A DNA stretch of 64,000 nt, taken from Spartobacteria bacterium LR76. Lineage in GTDB: Bacteria; Verrucomicrobiota; Verrucomicrobiia; Chthoniobacterales; Terrimicrobiaceae. Shown here in pieces: positions 11,683-43,425 of the stretch (within the stretch, counting starts at the first letter, position 1; every line of letters begins with the position of its first letter). A program made the translations under genes and the position numbers. The stretch is taken from positions 62,001 through 126,000 of the forward strand of contig QAYZ01000014.1 in NCBI GenBank assembly GCA_003054655.1, in the 5' to 3' direction. A model generated the notes under the pieces. That model was given only the letters and a program-made list of their open reading frames with translations. It was not told the DNA's origin and made no database searches.

Positions 11683-12195
11683 TTACTTCAACGCAGCGGC
11701 TGCCTGACGCACTTCATCTGCCGCGCCCTCGGTCTTCGCCTTCAGGTTCACCCAGGCGATTTTGCCGTCTTTCACGAGGAAGGACTGGCGCTGCGTGATG
11801 CCTACGACGGGAATCAGGTCGACGTGGAAAGCCTCCGCCACCTTGCCGTCATGGTCGGCGATGAGGGGGAAGGGGAGGCTGTATTTCTCCTGGAATTTCT
11901 TCTGCGCCTCGACCGTGTCCTTGCTCACGCCCACGACCTGGATTCCCGCGCCGCCGAGGCTGGCGTAGGAGTCGCGCAGCGAGCAGGCCTGCTTCGTGCA
12001 GCCCGGCGTGTCGGCCTTGGGGTAGAAATACACCAGCGTGACTCCCTTGGCGTAGATCGCGGCGAGGTCGAGCGGTTTGCCGTCCTGGTCGATGGCGGCA
12101 GGGGTGGGGGCGGGCGAACCGACCTCGAGAGGGGCGGCGTTACCGAAGAGTCCGAAGAATGTCATGGCAAGAAGGGTGAGTATTACTCGTTTCAT
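11683..12195 (-). CDS. Exported peroxiredoxin, Bcp/PrxQ type
   Basis: 170 residues. A signal peptide (MKRVILTLLAMTFFGLFG, cleavage near NAA) is followed by an AhpC/TSA thioredoxin-fold domain. The active site is TPGCTKQAC: peroxidatic Cys66 and a resolving Cys71 five residues later, the spacing of the atypical two-Cys Bcp/PrxQ group. It should reduce hydroperoxides outside the cytoplasm using a thioredoxin-like donor. It is divergent from the membrane TPR gene at 12228, with 32 bases between the start codons, so their promoters overlap each other or the coding ends. Confidence 0.9.
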   Translation of the reverse strand: MKRVILTLLAMTFFGLFGNAAPLEVGSPAPTPAAIDQDGKPLDLAAIYAKGVTLVYFYPKADTPGCTKQACSLRDSYASLGGAGIQVVGVSKDTVEAQKKFQEKYSLPFPLIADHDGKVAEAFHVDLIPVVGITQRQSFLVKDGKIAWVNLKAKTEGAADEVRQAAAALK

Positions 12196-12227: not shown

Positions 12228-13610
12228 ATGCTCAGAAGTCGACTTATCCGTTACGCTGCGATTGTTGTTTTGGGTGCGGCCATCTGCGGGCTTCTCTGGC
12301 TCGTCCCGGCTTTGCTGAGTGGACTCGCCCTGGAAAACTGGACCTTTGCCGCCCGTGGGCTGTATCCGCAACTCTTTGTCCCGGAGTCTCATACAGTGCT
12401 GGATGGCCTGTCCGCGATGCTCTGGAAGGTCGGCGGCCCGACCGGGCTGGGGTTCCTCGTGGCGGTCATCGGGTTTTTCAAGGGCTTCGCCATCGGCGGC
12501 ATCCTGACCGCGCTTCTCCTCCTCGCCTGGCAAATCCGACCGCGTCTCTGGCGGTGGCTGGCTTTCGGTTTGGTCGCTCTCGCGACGCTCGGCGTCTGCG
12601 CCCTCGCCATCGTCCGGATCGCGACGATCGACGGCAGCGTCGCCCGCTCGCGCGAGCTGACCGGCCCCTTCAATCTCCTTGATGAGTGGAAAGGCGGGCC
12701 GCTCTTTGTCTCCCGCTCCGCGCTCCCCTTTGTTCTTCTGCGCGACCCGGCGGCGGCGAAGGATCTCACCGAGGTTGCCACGGTCAAGCTGGCCAACGAC
12801 CCGGGCGCCTGGCGCGAGCAGTTGCGGAAATCCGACTGGCAGACCGTCATCCTGACCGGGCCGAATATCGAGTTTCGCCCGCTCCTCAATCACCTCCTCG
12901 AGTCGCCCGACTGGCACCTCGCCGCCGTGACGAATCAAGGCTACGTCTTCATCCGCGGAGCCGGGGCGATGCCGCATGAGTTCGATCCTGGGAAGTTCCG
13001 CCTCGGCAGCGACCGCGAAACCGCCGTCTACCTCGCCGCTCTGGCCGATCGTTACGAGGCTCTCCGCGATACCCGCAGCGCGCGCGACAGCATCACCCTC
13101 GCCCTCAAGCTCGCGGGCAACGACGCCACCGTCCTCTCCTACGCCGCCGCCATCGAGGCCGGGCACAAGCGCTGGGCGGATTCCCTCGGCTACGCCGACC
13201 GAGCTCTCGCCGCCGATCCGCGTTCCTCCTACGCGATGCTGCTCAAGACGCTGGCCCTCCTTGAGACCGGCCGCCCCGACAAGGCCGAGCCGCTGGCCCG
13301 CCAGCTCATGGAGCGCGCACCCAACGACACCTATACCCTGTTCCTCTACGCCCGGGTCTGCCGCGAACTCCGCGACTCCCGCACCGAGGCCGAGACGCTG
13401 CAGAAACTCATCGATGTCTCCCAGCGCCAGGGCCTCCCCGTGCCGCCAAACTACTATGTCTTCCTCGGTCAGGCCTATGTCCTGATCGGCGAGGCTCCAC
13501 AGGCCGCCGCCGCCTATCGCAAGGCCCTCGAGATTCCCGGCCTCGGCCCGGAACTCTCCGCCTCCGTGCGCGACGCGCTGAAGACCGTGGAATCCAAAAT
13601 CCGCCGCTGA
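12228..13610 (+). CDS. Membrane protein with C-terminal TPR repeats
   Basis: 460 residues. There are about three hydrophobic segments in the N-terminal 135 residues (around 8-30, 75-102 and 108-132). A soluble region with a SALPFVLLRDPAAAK stretch follows, then TPR helices from about 270 to 450 (for example AVYLAALADRYEALRDTRSA and APQAAAAYRKALEIPG). TPR domains carry protein contacts, and the membrane part places them at the inner membrane. No enzyme motif is visible. It is followed by ilvD after 65 bases on the same strand; a shared role is not evident. Confidence 0.72.
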   Translation: MLRSRLIRYAAIVVLGAAICGLLWLVPALLSGLALENWTFAARGLYPQLFVPESHTVLDGLSAMLWKVGGPTGLGFLVAVIGFFKGFAIGGILTALLLLAWQIRPRLWRWLAFGLVALATLGVCALAIVRIATIDGSVARSRELTGPFNLLDEWKGGPLFVSRSALPFVLLRDPAAAKDLTEVATVKLANDPGAWREQLRKSDWQTVILTGPNIEFRPLLNHLLESPDWHLAAVTNQGYVFIRGAGAMPHEFDPGKFRLGSDRETAVYLAALADRYEALRDTRSARDSITLALKLAGNDATVLSYAAAIEAGHKRWADSLGYADRALAADPRSSYAMLLKTLALLETGRPDKAEPLARQLMERAPNDTYTLFLYARVCRELRDSRTEAETLQKLIDVSQRQGLPVPPNYYVFLGQAYVLIGEAPQAAAAYRKALEIPGLGPELSASVRDALKTVESKIRR

Positions 13611-13675: not shown

Positions 13676-15379
13676 ATGAGCTCCAAATCCCGCACGAAGC
13701 CCAACCTTCGCCCCCACTCCTCACTCGTGCTCGATGGCGAGAGCCGTGCGCCCAGCCGCGCCATGCTCTACCCCGTCGGGTACAAGGACAGCGACTTCAG
13801 CAAATCCCAGATCGGCGTCGCCTCGACCTGGAGCATGGTCACCCCGTGCAACATGCACATCGACCAGCTCGCCCGCGAGGCCGCCATCGGCGTCGACGGC
13901 GCTGGCGGGAAGGCCACCATCTTCAACACCATCACCATCTCCGACGGCATCTCCATGGGCACCGAGGGGATGAAATACTCGCTCGTCTCGCGCGAGGTCA
14001 TTGCCGACTCCATCGAGACGGTCGTGGGTTGCCAGGGCTTCGACGGCTTCGTCGCCATCGGCGGTTGTGACAAGAACATGCCGGGCTGCTGCATCGCCAT
14101 CGCCCGCCTGGACCGCCCTGCCGTCTTCGTCTACGGCGGCACCATTCTCCCGGGCTGCCTGAATGGCAAAAACCTCGATGTCGTTTCCGTCTTTGAGGCG
14201 GTCGGCGCGGAGGCTGCGGGCAAGATCACTGCGAAGGAAATGCACGAGGTCGAGTCCTGCGCCATTCCCGGCCCCGGTTCCTGCGGCGGCATGTACACGG
14301 CCAACACCATGGCCTCCGCCATCGAGGCCATGGGCCTCAGCCTGCCGAACAGCTCGGCCCAGGCCGCCGTCTCCGCCCACAAGGTGAAGGACTGCCGCGA
14401 CGCTGGTGCCGCCGTGTTGAATCTCCTGAAGCGCGGCATCCGCCCGTCGGACATTTTCTCCAAGGAATCCCTGGAGAACGCCATCACCGTGGTCATCGCC
14501 CTCGGCGGCTCGACCAATGCCGTGCTGCACCTCCTCGCCATCGCCCACGCGGCCAATGTGAAGCTCACCATCGACGACTTCACCCGCATCGGGAAGCGCG
14601 TTCCGGTATTGGCTGATCTCAAGCCGAGCGGCCGTTTCCTCATGAGCCAGCTCGTCGAGATCGGCGGCATCGTGCCGATGATGAAGGACCTGCTCCACGC
14701 GGGTCTCCTCCACGGCGACTGCCTCACCGTGACCGGCAAGACGCTCAAGCAAAACCTAGCCGCCTTCAAATCCTACCCGAAGGGCCAGCAGATCATCGCT
14801 CCGCTCAAGAAGCCCCTCAAGCCCGAGAGCCATCTCGTCATCCTGCGCGGCAACCTCGCGCCCGACGGCTCCGTGGCCAAGATCAGCGGCAAGGAAGGCG
14901 AGCGCTTCAGCGGCAAGGCCCGTGTCTTCGATAGTGAGGAGACCGCGATGTCGGCCATCCTCGACGGCAAGATCAAGAAGGGTGACGTCATCGTCATCCG
15001 CTACGAAGGGCCGCGCGGCGGTCCCGGCATGCGCGAGATGCTTTCGCCCACCAGCGCCGTGATGGGCCGCGGCCTCGGCAAGGATGTCGCGCTCATCACC
15101 GACGGACGCTTCTCCGGCGGCACGCACGGCTTTGTCGTCGGCCACATCACGCCCGAGGCGTTCGATGGCGGCCCGCTGGCCATTGTCAAAAACGGCGACG
15201 CGATCACCATCGACGCCGTCACCCGCACGCTCACCCTCGGCCTTTCCAAGAAGGAAATCTCCGACCGCCTCGCCAAGTGGAAGCGCCCGAAGCCGCGTTA
15301 CCGCCGTGGCGTGCTCGCCAAGTACGCCGCCAGTGTGACCACCGCATCGCTCGGCGCAGTCACCGACGCCGGTCTCTAG
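13676..15379 (+). CDS. ilvD: Dihydroxy-acid dehydratase
   Basis: 567 residues, typical length. IlvD converts 2,3-dihydroxy-3-methylbutanoate and -pentanoate to the 2-keto acids, the last common step of valine and isoleucine synthesis, using an Fe-S cluster. Cluster-binding cysteines lie in [11 protein letters not shown] and [14 protein letters not shown], and the C-terminal signature [12 protein letters not shown] and [13 protein letters not shown] are complete. The start at 13676 ([10 protein letters not shown]) leads into the conserved opening around residue 35. The large NRPS-like gene follows 25 bases downstream and is probably co-transcribed. leuCD lie 26 kb away. Confidence 0.96.
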
Positions 15380-15404: not shown

Positions 15405-18400
15405 ATGCGCGACTCCTCTGCCTCCGCCGGTCTTTCCACCGCTGTCTTCCTCCACAAGGAAGCGGCGGACCCCGCTGTGCAAAATGCCCAGCTTTCCGTC
15501 AGCTTCGGTGAAAAAATCGAAGCGGGAAAAATCCGGGATACCTGGAACGGCCTGCTGGCAGCCAAGGCGCTCCTGCGCGCGGGCATCTACCAGACGCCCG
15601 AGGGCTGCGTGCTCCGTGAAGCCGCCGCGAGAGAGATGCGCTGGCAGCATCTTGACTGGACGAAGGATGACCGCGAGGGCATCCCGGTCCAGTGGGGCGC
15701 GCTGCTCGCTTCGGAATCCGCCATGTCGTTCGCCCTGGAGGGTGCGCCGCTTTTTCGCGGCGTCACCATCGAGCTTCCTGGCGGCGGCACGCACCTGCTC
15801 CTGACCTTTCCCCAGTGCCTCCTGAGCGAGGAGGAAATCTACCGGCTCCTCTCCGAATATCTCGCCGCCATCGACGGACAGGCTCCCGCCTACGAGACGG
15901 AGATTTCCGCCGCGTCCTCCGGCGACGCTTCCGCCGATTGGTGGAAGGAACACGCCCAGGCCGCTCCGTTTTCCCTCACCCTTCACCCCGCGTCGGACGC
16001 CCTGCGCACTCCGGCCTCCGTCTCCCATCTTTACCAGCGCGACGATTCCCGCGCTCTCCACCAGGCCGCTTCGAAGCTCGGCGTCAGCCTCGGTTCGCTC
16101 ATCCAGGGAGTTGCCGCCGTCGTCATCGGCCGACTCGGCTCCGCGCCGGTTTTCACCTGGCTGTCGAATCCTCCCGGCGTCTCGCATCTTCTGCCCGCCC
16201 CGGTCTCCCTGAAAGGCAGCCTGACTTTCTCCGACTGGATCACCGCTTTTGAACTCAATGAGCAGGACCGCGCCGCGCACGCCGGGGGTTCTCTTCCCGG
16301 CATCCTGCCCGTCCTCGACCGCCGCCTGGCAGAGTACCCGATAGCCTTTCGCTCGCTGCCAGCCCCCGTCAGCGACCGCATCCAGGCCGCCCAGCCGCGC
16401 TGGATGAATTTCGACGCCAAGGTCATGAGCCGTCCGCTCACTCCGGTCTCCATCGACCTCCACGACGGCTCCCGCATTTCCCTGGAGATTTTCTACACCG
16501 CCGACCGCTGGACTTCCGCCCAGGCCGACCGCGTGCTCGCGCGTCTCCTGGCCGCCATCGCGGCGGTGGTGGCCGATCCCGAGATAAAGCTCGACGCGCT
16601 GACCGGCGCGCTCGACAGCGACACCCTTCCCGCCGTGGCCTGCGTGCCGCTGCCGTCCGCGGGGAAGAGCTTCGAGGAGCGCATCTGCGACACGGCGGCG
16701 AAGCTCTCCACCGAGCTGGCCGTGCAGGGCGAGGGCGAGGCCGCGCTTTCCTACGGCGACCTCCTTTCCCACTCCCAATCGCTCGCATCTTACCTCAAGC
16801 AGGAAAATCTCGCCGAGGGCTGGGTGATCGCCGTCTGTCTCGTGCCGACTCCCTGGCTGCCCGTCGCCCTGCTGGGCATCGCTCTCGCGGGCGATACCTG
16901 CGTCGCGCTCGATCCCGAGGCCGCCCGCGAATGGCTCGCCGACAAGGCCGCCTCCTGCGACGCCGAACTCGTCATCTGCGATTCGCGCACCGCGTCGTTT
17001 TTCGAGGGCGGTTCCCGCCGCGTTCTCGTCATCGACCAGCAGTGGGAGACCATCTCGGCCTCGCCCGTCTTTGAAAAAATCAGCCACGAGCCGAAGACCT
17101 CCTACCTCCTCCTCGGCACCGAAAGCGACCCCGCTCCGCGTATTGCCTCGCTCCAGCCGGATTTCGTCGGCTCCGTGCTCAAGGAATCCAACGCCCGCTG
17201 GCGCCTGCGCCCGGGGTCGTGCATTCCGCTGAATTTCTCCGCCGGCACCGGCGCATTCCTCGAGGTGCTGCTTTCCGCTCTTGCCTCCGGTGCGACGATT
17301 CTCCTGCCGCCGACCTCGTCGGTTGCGTCCAGCTTTGGGTGGAATCCCACTCACCTCCGCCTTAGCCTCCTGCAGTGGCGCAACCTCCTGGCCGAGCTTC
17401 GCCGCGGCTCCGTCTCGCTGCCGGAATCCCTCCGCGCCGTCGCCATCGAGGCCGCCGCCGTCCCCGCCGATCTCTTTGCGGAATGGCTGGCCTTTGCCGG
17501 AGAGGAAATCGCCACGCATATTTTCTGGAGCCCGGTGTCAAATTCCGGCCTCGGCATCCGCTCCTTTGTGAAGGGCGGTTCCGCCGCGACTCTGCCTGCC
17601 ACGGGCTTCCCGACGCCCGGCCTGTCCGTGACCCTCGCCGATGCCTTGGGCCGCGACCTGCCGCCGTATATCCAGGGCGAGGCCGTCATCAAGCTCCTCG
17701 ACGGCGATCAGGAGTGGAAAATGCCGGCTTGGCGCGATGAACACGGTGCTTTCTTCTTCCTCGCGGAAAACTGCGCCGAGGCGAAGATCCGCCAGACTCT
17801 CGGTGCGCTCGATGCCGTTGTCGCCGAGGTCGACCAGCGGCGCGGTGCCTGGGTTTTGCGAGGCAGCGACGCTCTTCCCGCCACTGCGCTGGAGCAGATC
17901 AATGGCGTCCTTTCCTCCGCCCGGAAGGTGGATTTTGTCCAGGAGGTCGACCTCTTCCCGCTCACACCCGTGGGCGAACTGAAGGTCTCCGGCCTCCCGA
18001 CCCCCGCCCGGATCGCCAAGCCGAAGCCCCAGGCCAGACCCGAGCCTGCTCCGAAAGCCGCCGCCGCGCCCAAGATCCCCGAGGCTCGCCCTTCCGAGCC
18101 TGCCGTGGCCGCGCAGCCGGCGCCTCAGCCCGCCCCCGTGCTCCGTGAGTGGGAGCCGCTCATCCTCCTCAGCCGCGAACCTTCCACGCCGAATCTCATC
18201 CTCGTCCACGACGCAGGCGGCGACCCCGCCGTCTACGGGCCTCTGGCCGAGACCCTGCGTGGCGACTGGACCATCTACGCCACCGCCGCTCGCGGATTTC
18301 ACCAGCCTGCGTCCTGCCATGAGGCCGTCGAGGACGAAGCCGCCGCCCTTGTGCGCGCTCTCGTCGATCTCGATCCCGCCGGACCCTATCATCTCTTCGG

Positions 18401-18824
18401 CTATGGCTACGGCGCTCTGCTCGCCTATGAAATGGCCCGCCAGCTTCGCGAGGCCAGCCGCCCCGTGCATTACCTCGCCCTCGCCGGTACGCCGCCGGAG
18501 CTGCAGGGCGGCAAGGTCTGGCTGCGCTCGTTTACCCGGCTTTTCTCTGGGCAGGCCGCCCAGCGTGAGATTCCCGCCACGCCCGCAGGCGAGGCCCATC
18601 TCCGCGCCACCCGCGCCTATCGTCCGGCTCCGCTTGACGGACCGGCGGGCGTCATCCTCGGTGCCGACCAGGGCCGCGAGGTGGAGAATGCCTGGCTCAA
18701 TGCCATCCCCGAGGGATTCGTCGAGCGCGTGACCAATCCGGTCGCCTCGCTCCTCGATGAACCCGGCGTGAAGCGCCTCGCCGTCATCCTCCGCGAATGG
18801 GCCGTGCCCTCCGCCGACGAATAA
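15405..18824 (+). CDS. Degenerate NRPS-like C-A-TE protein, probable pseudoenzyme
   Basis: 1139 residues with the outline condensation (about 1-415), adenylation (about 420-865), an Ala/Pro/Lys linker (866-915) and thioesterase (about 916-1139). No carrier domain is present (no GG-x-S-L motif). The condensation HHxxxDG position reads FPQCLLS (135-141). In the adenylation domain the A1 (LSYGDLL, 448-454) and A2 (LLGIALAGDTCVALDP) regions are recognisable. The A3 glycine loop is replaced by GTESDPAPR (571-579), no N-x-Y-G-P-T-E or TGD is visible, and the A10 box reads PLTPVGELK. The thioesterase keeps the alpha/beta-hydrolase opening VHDAGGDP, but its nucleophile elbow is GYGYG (999-1003) without serine and the expected histidine near 1110 is absent. 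The frame is nevertheless intact. It follows ilvD by 25 bases. A binding, scaffold or regulatory role is more likely than peptide synthesis. Confidence 0.75.
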   Translation: MRDSSASAGLSTAVFLHKEAADPAVQNAQLSVSFGEKIEAGKIRDTWNGLLAAKALLRAGIYQTPEGCVLREAAAREMRWQHLDWTKDDREGIPVQWGALLASESAMSFALEGAPLFRGVTIELPGGGTHLLLTFPQCLLSEEEIYRLLSEYLAAIDGQAPAYETEISAASSGDASADWWKEHAQAAPFSLTLHPASDALRTPASVSHLYQRDDSRALHQAASKLGVSLGSLIQGVAAVVIGRLGSAPVFTWLSNPPGVSHLLPAPVSLKGSLTFSDWITAFELNEQDRAAHAGGSLPGILPVLDRRLAEYPIAFRSLPAPVSDRIQAAQPRWMNFDAKVMSRPLTPVSIDLHDGSRISLEIFYTADRWTSAQADRVLARLLAAIAAVVADPEIKLDALTGALDSDTLPAVACVPLPSAGKSFEERICDTAAKLSTELAVQGEGEAALSYGDLLSHSQSLASYLKQENLAEGWVIAVCLVPTPWLPVALLGIALAGDTCVALDPEAAREWLADKAASCDAELVICDSRTASFFEGGSRRVLVIDQQWETISASPVFEKISHEPKTSYLLLGTESDPAPRIASLQPDFVGSVLKESNARWRLRPGSCIPLNFSAGTGAFLEVLLSALASGATILLPPTSSVASSFGWNPTHLRLSLLQWRNLLAELRRGSVSLPESLRAVAIEAAAVPADLFAEWLAFAGEEIATHIFWSPVSNSGLGIRSFVKGGSAATLPATGFPTPGLSVTLADALGRDLPPYIQGEAVIKLLDGDQEWKMPAWRDEHGAFFFLAENCAEAKIRQTLGALDAVVAEVDQRRGAWVLRGSDALPATALEQINGVLSSARKVDFVQEVDLFPLTPVGELKVSGLPTPARIAKPKPQARPEPAPKAAAAPKIPEARPSEPAVAAQPAPQPAPVLREWEPLILLSREPSTPNLILVHDAGGDPAVYGPLAETLRGDWTIYATAARGFHQPASCHEAVEDEAAALVRALVDLDPAGPYHLFGYGYGALLAYEMARQLREASRPVHYLALAGTPPELQGGKVWLRSFTRLFSGQAAQREIPATPAGEAHLRATRAYRPAPLDGPAGVILGADQGREVENAWLNAIPEGFVERVTNPVASLLDEPGVKRLAVILREWAVPSADE

Positions 18825-18828
18825 GCGG

Positions 18829-19566
18829 TTAGTAAACCACGCTCCGCGCCAGCAGCAGCCAGACCCGGCTACGGGCGACTTTCACGCGCGGCGCGTCCGG
18901 GTTTTTCTCGATCAGGTCGAGCGTCTCGCGCCCGAGCAGGAGAGGCAGTGCACAGGCCATGCGCAGGCGGCGGATTCGCAGCGCCTTAACGTATTTTTCG
19001 GCCCCGAGCAGATGTCCCCGGGCGATGGCCAGGGCATGATTAAACGACTCCCGGGGCAGGTAGACCCGCCCGAGCGAGGAATCGGCCGCGCGGTCGCGCA
19101 GCACGTTCACGTATTGCAGCCCTTTGCCAAACTGCACCCCCGCTTCCAGCATCTCATCGTGCGGCAGCCGTGCGAAATGCGGCAGGTGTTTCGCGCACAC
19201 GCGGGTCCAAAAGTCCCCGACGCAGCCCGCGACGAGGTACGTGTAGCGATCGAGCTCCGCCGGGCTGAGCGCGGGCGCTCCCGGCGGGAATCGCGTCCCA
19301 TCAAAATCCTGCCCCTCCTGGATCGTCGCCCACACCGTGGCGATTTCCTCCTTGTCCTCGCTCTCCTTGAGCGCAGTCCGCAACTCCTCCTCCCGCGCGA
19401 GCAGTTCCCGCTCCGCGTCGGAGCTGGCCCCATCCGCCTTCGTGTCCGACAGGCGCGCCAGCAGGTAGGCCAGGGCGATCGTCGGTCGTACCCGCGCGGG
19501 CAGCAGCCGCAGGGTCAGGTAAAACGACCGCGATACCTCGCGCAGCAGCCGCCAGTCGATGTTCAC
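18829..19566 (-). CDS. Phytoene/squalene synthase family prenyltransferase
   Basis: About 245 residues from a GTG at 19566 whose GTGA overlaps the stop of the DUF362 gene. Head-to-head prenyl synthases condense two C15 or C20 diphosphates. The two metal-binding motifs appear as D41-TKA-D45 in LARLSDTKAD and D158-RAA-D162 in VNVLRDRAAD, and the FGKGLQYVNVLRD helix is characteristic. The N-terminus SRSFYLTLRLLP matches the family opening. No desaturase, squalene-hopene cyclase or second synthase lies nearby, so squalene and phytoene cannot be told apart. A longer open frame continues upstream to 20631, but that part is a shadow of the DUF362 gene. Confidence 0.85.
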   Translation of the reverse strand: MNIDWRLLREVSRSFYLTLRLLPARVRPTIALAYLLARLSDTKADGASSDAERELLAREEELRTALKESEDKEEIATVWATIQEGQDFDGTRFPPGAPALSPAELDRYTYLVAGCVGDFWTRVCAKHLPHFARLPHDEMLEAGVQFGKGLQYVNVLRDRAADSSLGRVYLPRESFNHALAIARGHLLGAEKYVKALRIRRLRMACALPLLLGRETLDLIEKNPDAPRVKVARSRVWLLLARSVVY

Positions 19567-20687
19567 CGCAGTGCTTCCACTCCCACCCGGAGCAGCTCCG
19601 TGCGAGTCTCGGAGAATTGCCCGAGACCCAGTTGCGCGCCGGACTCGATCCACGCGCAGGCGGGCTTGATCGAGGGGAGCTTGCTCCCCTTGCGTAGTTC
19701 GTCGATCAGCCGCACCGCCGTGGCGTCGATGGCGATCACATCCGTGCTGGCAAAGATGGTGAAGTTGTTCACGGCAAAGTTCGGGTTCGGCATCGGCCCG
19801 CCTGCGTATTGAATCACCAGCGCATCCATCATCGTGAGCGCCACCTTGTCCTTCACCAGCTCGTCCGCGTAGACCTCCGAGAGATACGAACCGCCGTCCA
19901 TCGACGCCTGGCCAAACCGCCGCCAGTTGTCGAGGTTGAAGACCGTCATATTGACCACTCCGCCGTTGATACCGGTCATGAAGCTGTCCGTCATCGACGG
20001 CACATTGATCACTTTCGTCACCGACTTGCTCAGCACCTTGGCAAAGAAGCTCCGGCTGCTCAGTTGATCGCCGTTGGAGAGGCGGTCCGAGATGCGCGAA
20101 CCCTCCCGCTTGCCAAACTGGCTGTCTCCCCAGATCAGCTTGCCCAGCACCGGGGCGCTCACCTGCGCGTCCTGGTCGTAGCCGTTCTGCGGGTCGATGC
20201 CCTGGAGGATGTAGAGCGGGTTGTCCTTGCGGAATCCCGCGGCCAGCAGGTCTTCGATATTGCGATCCCACACGATGATGTTGCGGGCCGGCACGCCGGA
20301 CTCGATCAGCCCGCGCGCGATGGCGTCGACCACCTCCGGGTGCGTCCCGCTGGTCGCCTGTCCGCTGGCGGAAACCTTGATGCCCACCACATCGGAGGGC
20401 GTGACGTACTTGGCCCAGGCCTGCGCGACCGTCGGCTTCTGGGCGAGGTTGCAGATGAGGGAATCCACCATCCTCTGGACCGTGCGCGGATTGGCCCGGT
20501 TCCCCTCGGAGAGGGCGGACCCGTCGATGGCGTAGTAAACCTTCGATTTCGGGGGTGGGGGAGGCAGGTTCGACTGGGCCACCGCCGTACCGCTGACAAT
20601 CCCTGCACAAAACATCCACGCGATCGCCCATTTTCTGCTACCGTGGCCCCTCAGCCATGGTCGAACATCTCTACGCGCACATTCCAT
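19563..20687 (-). CDS. Exported DUF362-domain protein
   Basis: About 374 residues. DUF362 proteins are a broad family of uncertain function, some linked to Fe-S proteins; no cysteine-rich ferredoxin part is seen here. Recognisable segments are DVVGIKVSASG, GTHPEVVDAIARGLIESG, NIIVWDRN, and near the C-terminus ASTDVIAIDATAVRLIDE. A signal peptide is visible as RKWAIAWMFCAGIVSGTAVAQ. Only the ATG at 20687 includes its charged part, at the price of a 31-base overlap with the divergent hemW-like gene; the ATG at 20615 would give a very short signal. It is translationally coupled to the prenyl synthase that follows. Confidence 0.75.
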   Translation of the reverse strand: MECARRDVRPWLRGHGSRKWAIAWMFCAGIVSGTAVAQSNLPPPPPKSKVYYAIDGSALSEGNRANPRTVQRMVDSLICNLAQKPTVAQAWAKYVTPSDVVGIKVSASGQATSGTHPEVVDAIARGLIESGVPARNIIVWDRNIEDLLAAGFRKDNPLYILQGIDPQNGYDQDAQVSAPVLGKLIWGDSQFGKREGSRISDRLSNGDQLSSRSFFAKVLSKSVTKVINVPSMTDSFMTGINGGVVNMTVFNLDNWRRFGQASMDGGSYLSEVYADELVKDKVALTMMDALVIQYAGGPMPNPNFAVNNFTIFASTDVIAIDATAVRLIDELRKGSKLPSIKPACAWIESGAQLGLGQFSETRTELLRVGVEALR

Positions 20688-21745
20688 TCTGTCCGAAGGT
20701 GTGCCCGTATTGCAGTTTTTACAAGGAGGCAAGCGACAGGAATAAAACTCGTGCCTTCCTCGACGCCATGCTCCGCGAGGCGGACATCTGGGGCGACCGG
20801 CTCCAGCCGCGCACGATTTTCTTTGGCGGCGGCACTCCCACGGCACTTTCCACCTCGCAACTCGACCACCTCATCTCGGGTCTCCGCGAGCGGATGGATT
20901 TCTCCCGCCTCGAGGAGTTCACCATCGAGATGAACCCCGCCACCGTCTCGCTGGAAAAGGCCTCGCGCCTCCGCGAGCTGGGCGTCAACCGCGTGAGCAT
21001 GGGCGTCCAGAGCTGGGACCCCGGCCTGCTGGAAACCCTCGGGCGCGTGCATTCCCGCGACCAGGCCCTCCGCAGCTACTCCATCCTGCGCGAGGCGGGC
21101 TTTGACAACATCAACCTCGATTTCATCTTCGGCATCCCCGGCCAGACCGTGGACCAGTGGGTCGATACGCTGCGCCAGACCATCGCTCTCCAGCCGCAGC
21201 ACATTTCCGCCTACTGCCTCACCTACGAGGAGGATACGGAGTACTTCCTCCGCCTCGGCCGGGGGGAATTCTCCCAGGACCCCGAGGTCGACGCCGCCCT
21301 TTTTGAACTCACCATGGAAACCCTCGAGGGCGCGGGCTACGCGCAGTACGAGATTTCCAACTACGCCCGCCCGGGCCGCGAGTGCCGGCACAATCTCGCC
21401 TACTGGCTCGGCGCGGATTACATCGGCCTCGGCCCCAGCGCCTTTTCCACCTTCGGCGGGGAACGCTGGAAAAACGTCAGCGATACCGCGGATTATGTCG
21501 CCCGCGTGAATGCCGGGGTCACCCGCGCCGATTTCGTCGAGCCGGTCGATGCCGCCACCCGGCAGGCCGAGGTGGTCGCCTTCTCGCTCCGTACGAATCG
21601 CGGTGTGGAGGCGAGCCTCATGCCGGAGGAAAAAACCAGCGAACTCGCCGCCCTCGGCTATCTCGCCCGCTCCGGCGACCGCTGGCTGCTTACGCGCAAG
21701 GGCCGCATGGTGGCCGACGAACTCGCCGGCCAGCTCATCGACTAG
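20657..21745 (+). CDS. hemW: HemW-like radical SAM protein
   Basis: 362 residues. It begins MVEHLYAHIPFC and carries the radical SAM cluster motif C12-x3-C16-x2-C19 followed by SF, as in HemW. FFGGGTPTALS, TIEMNPATV, GVNRVSMGVQSWDP and the later YEISNYARPG and GLGPSAFS motifs are diagnostic of the coproporphyrinogen oxidase-like family. HemW proteins act in heme trafficking and are often misnamed as coproporphyrinogen III dehydrogenase, which is larger and begins differently. The C-terminal HemN domain is present (ELAALGYLARSGDRWLLT). It lies divergent to, and overlapping the start of, the DUF362 gene. Confidence 0.92.
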   Translation: MVEHLYAHIPFCPKVCPYCSFYKEASDRNKTRAFLDAMLREADIWGDRLQPRTIFFGGGTPTALSTSQLDHLISGLRERMDFSRLEEFTIEMNPATVSLEKASRLRELGVNRVSMGVQSWDPGLLETLGRVHSRDQALRSYSILREAGFDNINLDFIFGIPGQTVDQWVDTLRQTIALQPQHISAYCLTYEEDTEYFLRLGRGEFSQDPEVDAALFELTMETLEGAGYAQYEISNYARPGRECRHNLAYWLGADYIGLGPSAFSTFGGERWKNVSDTADYVARVNAGVTRADFVEPVDAATRQAEVVAFSLRTNRGVEASLMPEEKTSELAALGYLARSGDRWLLTRKGRMVADELAGQLID

Positions 21746-21754
21746 GCGGCAGGC

Positions 21755-22135
21755 CTACTGTTGCTGCTGCTGTTGTTGCTGCGAGGGCGGGGCGTCGTCT
21801 TTGCGAATCTTCCCGCCCCACGAGAGGATGCGCGCCTTCACCCCCGCCGACTCCGCTTCCTTGATCTGGTGATTGCGGACGTAAAAGAGCGACAGGCTTG
21901 ACCAGGCGAGCTGATCGTTGGGATTCAGGTCCACCGCCTTCAGCCCGGCCTCGATCGCCTCGGGATACCGGCCGGACTTCATCAGCGCCATGCCAAGGGC
22001 ATGCCACGCATCGAAGTACGCGGCATCCATCTCGACACAGCTCCGATATTTCTCGATCGCGGCGTCGAGATCCCCCAGGGCGATGTCGCCCGTGGCATCC
22101 TCAAACAGCTCGACCGCCGCGGGGTCTGGCGTCAT
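21755..22135 (-). CDS. Small TPR protein with poly-glutamine C-terminus
   Basis: 126 residues: two to three tetratricopeptide repeats between about 10 and 105 (AAIEKYRSCVEMDAAYFDAW, then RYPEAIEAGLKAVDLNPND), a basic KIRKDD segment and a terminal run of eight glutamines. There is no signal peptide, so it is probably cytoplasmic. It starts only 5 bases after the stop of the upstream PpiD-like gene on the same strand and may be co-transcribed with it. The partner is unknown. Confidence 0.75.
   Translation of the reverse strand: MTPDPAAVELFEDATGDIALGDLDAAIEKYRSCVEMDAAYFDAWHALGMALMKSGRYPEAIEAGLKAVDLNPNDQLAWSSLSLFYVRNHQIKEAESAGVKARILSWGGKIRKDDAPPSQQQQQQQQ
21758..21781 (-). repeat. CAG/CAA trinucleotide run encoding Gln8
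   Basis: Eight consecutive glutamine codons mixing CAG and CAA sit directly before the TAG stop of the TPR gene. Length changes by slippage would alter only the tail of the protein. Confidence 0.9.
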
Positions 22136-42015: not shown

Positions 42016-43425
42016 ATGAGCAAAACATTATTGGATAAAGTCTGGGAGGCGCACACCGTGCGCAAACTGCCGAACGGAGCAACTCAACTGTTGATCGGCA
42101 CCCACCTTATTCATGAGGTGACCAGCCCTCAGGCTTTCGGCATGCTGCGCGATCTGGGCCTCAAGGTTCTTTATCCGCAGCGCACCTTCGCCACCGTCGA
42201 CCACATCGTGCCCACCGACGAGCGCGAGGAGCCGTTTTCTGATCCGCTGGCGGACGAAATGATCAAGGCCCTCCGTGCCAACTGCGACGAATTCGGCATC
42301 AAGTTCTTCGATCTGCCGACCGGCGCGCAGGGTATCGTGCACATCGTCGGTCCCGAGCAGGGCATCACCCAGCCCGGCACCACCATCGCCTGCGGCGACT
42401 CGCACACCTCGACCCATGGCGCTTTCGGCGCGATCGCCTTCGGCATCGGCACCAGCCAGGTCCGCGACGTGCTCGCCACCCAGACCATGGCGCTGCACAA
42501 GCCCAAGGTCCGCCGCATCAATGTCGATGGCAAGCTCGCCCCGGGCGTCTATGCCAAGGACGTCATCCTTCACATCATCCGCAAGCTCGGGGTGAATGGC
42601 GGCATCGGCTACGCCTACGAGTACGGCGGCTCGACCTTTGACAATTTCACGCAGGAAGAGCGTATGACCGTCTGCAACATGTCCATCGAGGGCGGCGCCC
42701 GCGTGGGATATGTGAACCCGGACGATACCACCTTCGATTATCTCAAGGGCCGTCCCTTCGCGCCCAAGGCCGAGGAGTGGGATGCCGCGGTCGCCCGCTG
42801 GCGCTCCTTTGCCTCCGACCCGGATGCCACCTACGACGACGTGGTGAACTTCCGCGCCGAGGATATCGGACCTACGATCACCTGGGGCATCAACCCCGGC
42901 CAGGCCATCTTCATCGACGAGAACGTCCCGACTCCGGCAGAACTGCCCGAGAAGGACCGTGCGACCGCCGAGGAGGCTCTCGTGCACATGAATCTCGCGC
43001 CCGGCAAGCCCATCAAGGGCACCAAAGTTGACGTCGCCTTCCTCGGTAGCTGTACCAACGGCCGCCTGAGCGACCTCACCGAGGTGGCGCGCTTCGTCAA
43101 GGGCCGCAAGGTCAAGGACGGCGTGAAAGCCATCGTCGTTCCCGGTTCCCAGGGCGTCTCGCAGATCGCCGAGAAAATGGGCCTCGCGGAGATCTTCCGC
43201 GACGCCGGTTTCGAGTGGCGCGGTGCCGGCTGCTCGATGTGCCTCGGCATGAACCCCGACAAGCTCGTCGGCCATCAGCTCTGCGCCAGCTCCAGCAACC
43301 GCAACTTCAAGGGCCGCCAGGGCAGCCCGACCGGCCGGACCGTGCTCATGAGTCCGATCATGGTCGCCGCCGCCGCCCTCACCGGCGAGATCACTGACGC
43401 CCGCGAAGTCTTCGACATCAAATAA
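42016..43425 (+). CDS. leuC: 3-isopropylmalate dehydratase, large subunit
   Basis: 469 residues, typical length. With LeuD it isomerises 2- to 3-isopropylmalate in leucine synthesis, using a 4Fe-4S cluster. Cluster cysteines lie in LGSCTNGR and in [13 protein letters not shown] near the C-terminus; the [14 protein letters not shown] motif near residue 125 is intact. Translation starts at ATG 42016 ([13 protein letters not shown]). leuD follows after 7 bases. The other leucine genes (leuA, leuB) are not in the window. Confidence 0.97.

Follow-up and report, generated by a model that had tools for sequence, protein, structure and literature searches.

A conserved relative of nonribosomal peptide synthetases that has lost its catalytic motifs and is often encoded beside ilvD in Chthoniobacterales

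What keeps a gene open when its product resembles a peptide synthetase from which the catalytic motifs have gone? The question is raised by an open reading frame at 15405-18824 (+) in a 64,000-nucleotide stretch of DNA from Spartobacteria bacterium LR76 (hereafter the window). The frame runs from ATG to TAA, encodes 1139 amino acids with zero internal stops, and begins 25 nt after ilvD, which ends at 15379. A preliminary description, made from the sequence, had already noted both the open frame and this spacing, which are borne out, and had traced the outlines of condensation (C), adenylation (A) and thioesterase (TE) domains with no carrier-protein site between them; it took the product for a conserved pseudoenzyme, possibly a regulator tied to branched-chain amino acids. 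Pseudoenzymes as such are well known. Pfam annotation, a structural model, homologues and dN/dS all bear on the interpretation of this gene, which is here termed a pseudo-NRPS (C-like, A-like and TE-like domains without a carrier).

Domain organisation and predicted fold

Two Pfam families score above cut-off in the protein, Thioesterase (PF00975, 7.9e-20, residues 930-1031) and AMP-binding (PF00501, 5.1e-18, residues 436-763). The Condensation score is weak in this protein (0.0048), and in the homologue from Xiphinematobacter (L043) the same family extends over residues 3-444 at 2.5e-37. A condensation-like domain is placed at 15405-16604 (+) (residues 1-400) on the weak Pfam score together with NRPS C-A structures matched by both Foldseek and VIA; it is followed by an adenylation-like domain at 16665-18014 (+) (residues 421-870) and a thioesterase-like domain at 18159-18806 (+) (residues 919-1134). 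No Pfam match to a carrier domain (PP-binding) was found in the protein, and the carrier site is instead occupied by a linker at 18012-18143 (+) (residues 870-913) that is Pro/Ala-rich by sequence and has a pLDDT below 50.

For the AlphaFold model, to which 22 family members contributed, the mean pLDDT is 81.2 and the pTM 0.62. Its best PDB matches by Foldseek are NRPS termination modules (4zxh, 6n8e, 2vsq and EntF), the best match for the whole model being the four-domain NRPS 4zxh, and the adenylation part matches ApnA A1 (4d4h) with a VIA Z of 41 over 361 residues at an rmsd of 2.6. Pfam, the model and the PDB matches therefore recover C, A and TE folds in the order of a functional NRPS module, as had been read from the sequence, and in the structure prediction that the preliminary description had proposed the protein takes the form of an NRPS termination module, with condensation, adenylation and thioesterase parts.

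Distribution in Chthoniobacterales

Profile searches covered 213 genomes of the order, plus 236 from the class and 388 from the phylum. Relatives do exist well outside the strain: the family is found, among the 213 genomes of the order, in four families of Chthoniobacterales (f1, f2, f7 and f9), within which its presence is near-universal. The 236 class and 388 phylum genomes yielded no further members; the profile otherwise matched NRPS genes there, and several of these are very long. Homologues outside the genus are near-full-length at 19-43% identity, and the reading frame is open in nearly all homologues across the four families. Two draft genomes from f1 (G014 and G024) gave no convincing match to the family. 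Plasmid records returned distant NRPS matches only, and a scan of genome contigs turned up a single near relative and a single NRPS.

The gene is kept in two Xiphinematobacter genomes (f7) of 915,884 and 917,278 bp, one contig each. The Xiphinematobacter genomes CP012665 and P23, of about 0.92 Mb, belong to obligate nematode symbionts (PMC4607532, PMC7857533); the main text of both genome papers mentions neither a peptide synthetase nor ilvD.

Loss of catalytic motifs

The closest intact homologue found, a single-module C-A-T-TE NRPS from G381 (L087:5925-9836), served as the reference for motifs. Pfam recovers all NRPS domains in this protein, and its motifs TSGTTGKPKG, NTYGPTE, YKTGD, GNGKVDRRALP and GGDSL are intact, as is a thioesterase elbow of the Cys type (GWCYG); its C motif has one His plus the Asp and Gly. 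Aligned to it, the pseudo-NRPS reads FPQCLLS at the HHxxxDG position (15807-15827 (+), residues 135-141), with the catalytic His and Asp lost, GTESDPAPR at the A3 (TSGTTGxPKG) position (17115-17141 (+)) and GYGYG at the GxSxG elbow (18399-18413 (+)). These three stretches had been put forward as motif losses, and each lies at the true motif position. The A10-like stretch FPLTPVGELKVSGLP (17955-17999 (+)) has Glu in place of the catalytic Lys; the A4 Asp, A5 GPTE and A8 are also missing and A7 (TGD) is deleted. The alignment to the intact NRPS places no canonical motif elsewhere in the pseudo-NRPS, ruling out hidden copies.

The canonical positions are lost in homologues too. Relative to the G381 protein, every family member shown is without A3, A5, A8, the A4 Asp and the A10 Lys, and has A7 deleted. 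None of the members shown retains the TE His, and the position of the TE nucleophile is Gly in 29 of the 29 aligned members. In the C domain, the member of G026 is alone among those aligned in having the second His. The first His and the Asp are still present in members from f7 and f9 and are lost from the window's protein. Because the C motif of G026 reads HHSLFDE, with both His and the Asp kept, C-domain chemistry may persist there, and judging by its sequence this member may retain residual condensation-domain activity.

The carrier is absent or unrecognisable in the family: a linker takes its place in f1, f2 and f7, and members from f9 have an insert of 70-80 residues before the TE domain, without GGxS. 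The position and helix pattern of this insert fit a T domain, but its profile scores and the model (mean pLDDT 53.6) are too weak to make it more than a candidate degenerate carrier, perhaps with a changed function. A carrier supplied in trans or by the adjacent gene would in any case be of no use to an A domain stripped of its motifs. Among L046, L045, L044 and L089 the insert is conserved at 71-78% identity.

Selection and descent

A comparison of dN/dS, which had been suggested as a check on decay, puts 13 of the 14 close pairs at 0.07-0.19 and the remaining pair at 0.32. These values are far below 1 even though no catalytic site is left to preserve, and the linker changes faster than the domains. 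Phylogenetic reconstruction separates the 29-member family from 11 NRPS modules with support of 100/100; sequences from f9 lie nearest to the NRPSs, with weaker support (86/79). Residues S31, G35, H130, G715 and G717 are invariant or nearly so in the 29 members and absent from the 11 NRPSs, and G1001 is family-specific, in the 29 aligned members, relative to the four outgroups that have a TE domain. G715 and G717 sit at the former A5 GPTE site. Family-specific invariant residues of this kind indicate that selection has acted on a function peculiar to the family, although some of them could be structural.

Association with ilvD

The upstream gene, ilvD (13676-15379 (+), 567 aa), encodes a dihydroxy-acid dehydratase by Pfam (ILVD_EDD_N/C) and TIGR00110 (743 bits). 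Whether the pair recurs was a question left by the preliminary description: in 28 genomes, drawn from three families (f1, f2 and f9), a co-oriented ilvD directly precedes the pseudo-NRPS, and the match coordinates from which the pairs were tabulated leave 20-123 nt between the two matches. The paired gene is the sole full-length ilvD in most of these genomes. In the window's genus there is a second, better-scoring ilvD outside the window (G000:C9:588736-590367), present also in G001 and G002.

Other neighbours of the pair are shuffled between genera. Upstream of ilvD in the window lie a gene for a TPR protein (12228-13610 (+)), a similar one preceding ilvD and the pseudo-NRPS in genus g1, G006 and G033, and a divergent peroxiredoxin gene (11683-12195 (-)), which is likely an ancestral neighbour. 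Genes 3' of the pseudo-NRPS in other genomes are unrelated (phosphoglucomutase, an MscS-like channel, CbiX and others), and in the loci examined there is no other NRPS gene beside it. A scan for a promoter between ilvD and the pseudo-NRPS found none, the scan being uninformative for this phylum. Where f3, f4, f5, f6 and f10-f13 were sampled, no pseudo-NRPS follows ilvD, which is followed by other genes or the contig end. The leucine-pathway gene leuC is also in the window, at 42016-43410 (G000:C9:104016-105410).

The pairing has exceptions. In G004 ilvD is followed by a different gene, and in G008 the pseudo-NRPS is open but the ilvD next to it is missing some 187 internal codons. This ilvD copy (C220, L038:11655-12785), in which the codons are missing in frame, is separated from the pseudo-NRPS by about 1.3 kb, and another ilvD match is on a 3.7 kb contig of the same genome; the shortened gene is possibly an assembly artefact, possibly a real replacement. 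In the draft G014 we found no ilvC, ilvD or pseudo-NRPS. This at first suggested joint loss of the pseudo-NRPS and the branched-chain pathway, but acetolactate synthase and leuC are present, which makes an incomplete assembly the more probable cause.

In f7 the pseudo-NRPS and ilvD are both present and unlinked. Here the pseudo-NRPS adjoins the peroxiredoxin gene that elsewhere stands upstream of ilvD, the arrangement that removal of an intervening ilvD would leave. In Xiphinematobacter, LivM/LivG/LivF-like genes lie beside it in convergent orientation (the names all fall below curated cut-offs), and in G047 it adjoins a gene for PanS, on its own strand, and one for citramalate synthase, with both names passing the curated cut-off. 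The neighbours thus point to branched-chain or ketopantoate metabolism in three of the four f7 genomes; the fourth, G055, has no branched-chain gene beside the pseudo-NRPS. As these neighbours were examined after the link to ilvD was already known, we regard them as no more than suggestive of a branched-chain role.

What maintains the pseudo-NRPS?

One explanation for a synthetase gene without its motifs is that it is decaying, and remains open by chance or through recency in a GC-rich genome. The disappearance of all hallmark motifs would be expected, and long antisense ORFs occur in this GC-rich DNA; against this stand a dN/dS of about 0.1, open frames in nearly all homologues from the four families, retention in genomes of 0.92 Mb and the invariance of residues specific to the family. 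On dN/dS and distribution we therefore rule decay out, any probability left to it being negligible. A different proposal is that the fold has been re-purposed for new chemistry with other residues. Residues confined to the family, such as G715/G717, H130 and S31, could be read in this way, as could the C-motif His and Asp that persist in f7 and f9 and both His in G026, but the protein of the window has itself lost the first His and Asp, and the invariant residues, most of them Gly, Trp, Leu or Pro, include no new conserved His/Ser/Cys/Asp/Lys set typical of a catalytic site; we consider such an enzyme improbable. The description of the gene as a conserved pseudoenzyme has accordingly held, given the lost catalytic residues, low dN/dS, relatives beyond the strain and the recurrent pair with ilvD, and it is highly probable that the pseudo-NRPS descends from an NRPS module and has been conserved as a folded protein without catalysis.

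A harder question is whether this derivative has anything to do with branched-chain metabolism. Conserved adjacency may reflect shared transcription only, which weighs against a role at IlvD, as does the lack of a branched-chain neighbour in G055, and a conserved non-catalytic protein of unrelated function could share the ilvD transcript for expression at a housekeeping level. The unlinked genes in f7, the missing pair in G004 and the broken ilvD of G008 would all sit comfortably with this alternative. On the other hand, the pair outlasts the reshuffling of other neighbours in three families, and branched-chain or pantoate genes turn up again beside the pseudo-NRPS in three of four f7 genomes. 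An unrelated function is thus a serious contender, if in our estimate a somewhat doubtful one. The best single reading, on which our own confidence is evenly balanced, is that the pseudo-NRPS works with IlvD or at the alpha-ketoisovalerate node. The earlier proposal of a regulator tied to branched-chain amino acids stays a suggestion from gene context, weakened by the absence of the pair from f7 and by G004, where ilvD has no pseudo-NRPS behind it.

In the reading that we favour, the catalytic motifs and carrier of a single-module NRPS (C-A-T-TE) disappeared in the common ancestor of one Chthoniobacterales group, or soon after its origin, and selection has since maintained a folded, non-catalytic protein. 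In the partnership with IlvD, which we infer, this protein, presumably co-transcribed with ilvD, would have an accessory role as a scaffold, stabiliser or ligand-sensing regulator at the IlvD/alpha-ketoisovalerate step or in the wider branched-chain pathway, acting through its C, A and TE folds and not through chemistry. The fuller claim, that a whole NRPS module turned on a single occasion into a subunit or sensor, without catalysis, for branched-chain synthesis at the IlvD node and is conserved strongly enough to have outlasted the genome reduction of nematode symbionts, is an attractive possibility that we would not yet favour. If the link to IlvD is true, it would represent a new mode of control for valine, leucine, isoleucine and pantothenate precursors. 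The role is testable, as the genus of the window probably includes the cultured Terrimicrobium sacchariphilum (putatively G002). The genome of T. sacchariphilum NM-5 comprises 4,751,807 bp in 3 contigs (PMC5532833).

Comparison with known systems

The pseudo-NRPS shares its C-A-TE order and predicted fold with single-module C-A-T-TE NRPSs (that of G381, AB3403 (4zxh), EntF (5ja1/5ja2) and SrfA-C (2vsq)), and is homologous to them over nearly its whole length; it differs from them in being without a carrier and in the loss of its A, TE and C motifs. The X domain of glycopeptide synthetases, a non-catalytic NRPS domain that recruits P450s, is likewise an NRPS fold reused, for protein recruitment and not catalysis. 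However, the X domain is one domain within an active synthetase, whereas the pseudo-NRPS is a whole protein, apparently dead, beside ilvD. As in ordinary bacterial IlvD operons, the IlvD encoded here is an ordinary dihydroxy-acid dehydratase, and the difference lies in the second gene of the pair. To our knowledge there is no published example of a complete NRPS module that lost its chemistry and became fixed across bacterial families beside a gene of primary metabolism, and a limited literature search found no description of the pseudo-NRPS. Annotation pipelines probably label such genes as NRPSs, and this mislabelling would inflate natural-product counts in Verrucomicrobiota.

Further observations in the window

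Long antisense ORFs occur in the GC-rich DNA of the window. A DUF362 ORF (19566-20846 (-)) overlaps a radical-SAM (HemW-like) ORF (20657-21742 (+)) by 190 nt, and the true start of the DUF362 gene is probably further in. At 21755-22135 (-) there is a short TPR-like protein with a run of Gln codons at its end; its length is 126, 125 or 124 aa among members of the genus, and the Gln run is perhaps a variable repeat.
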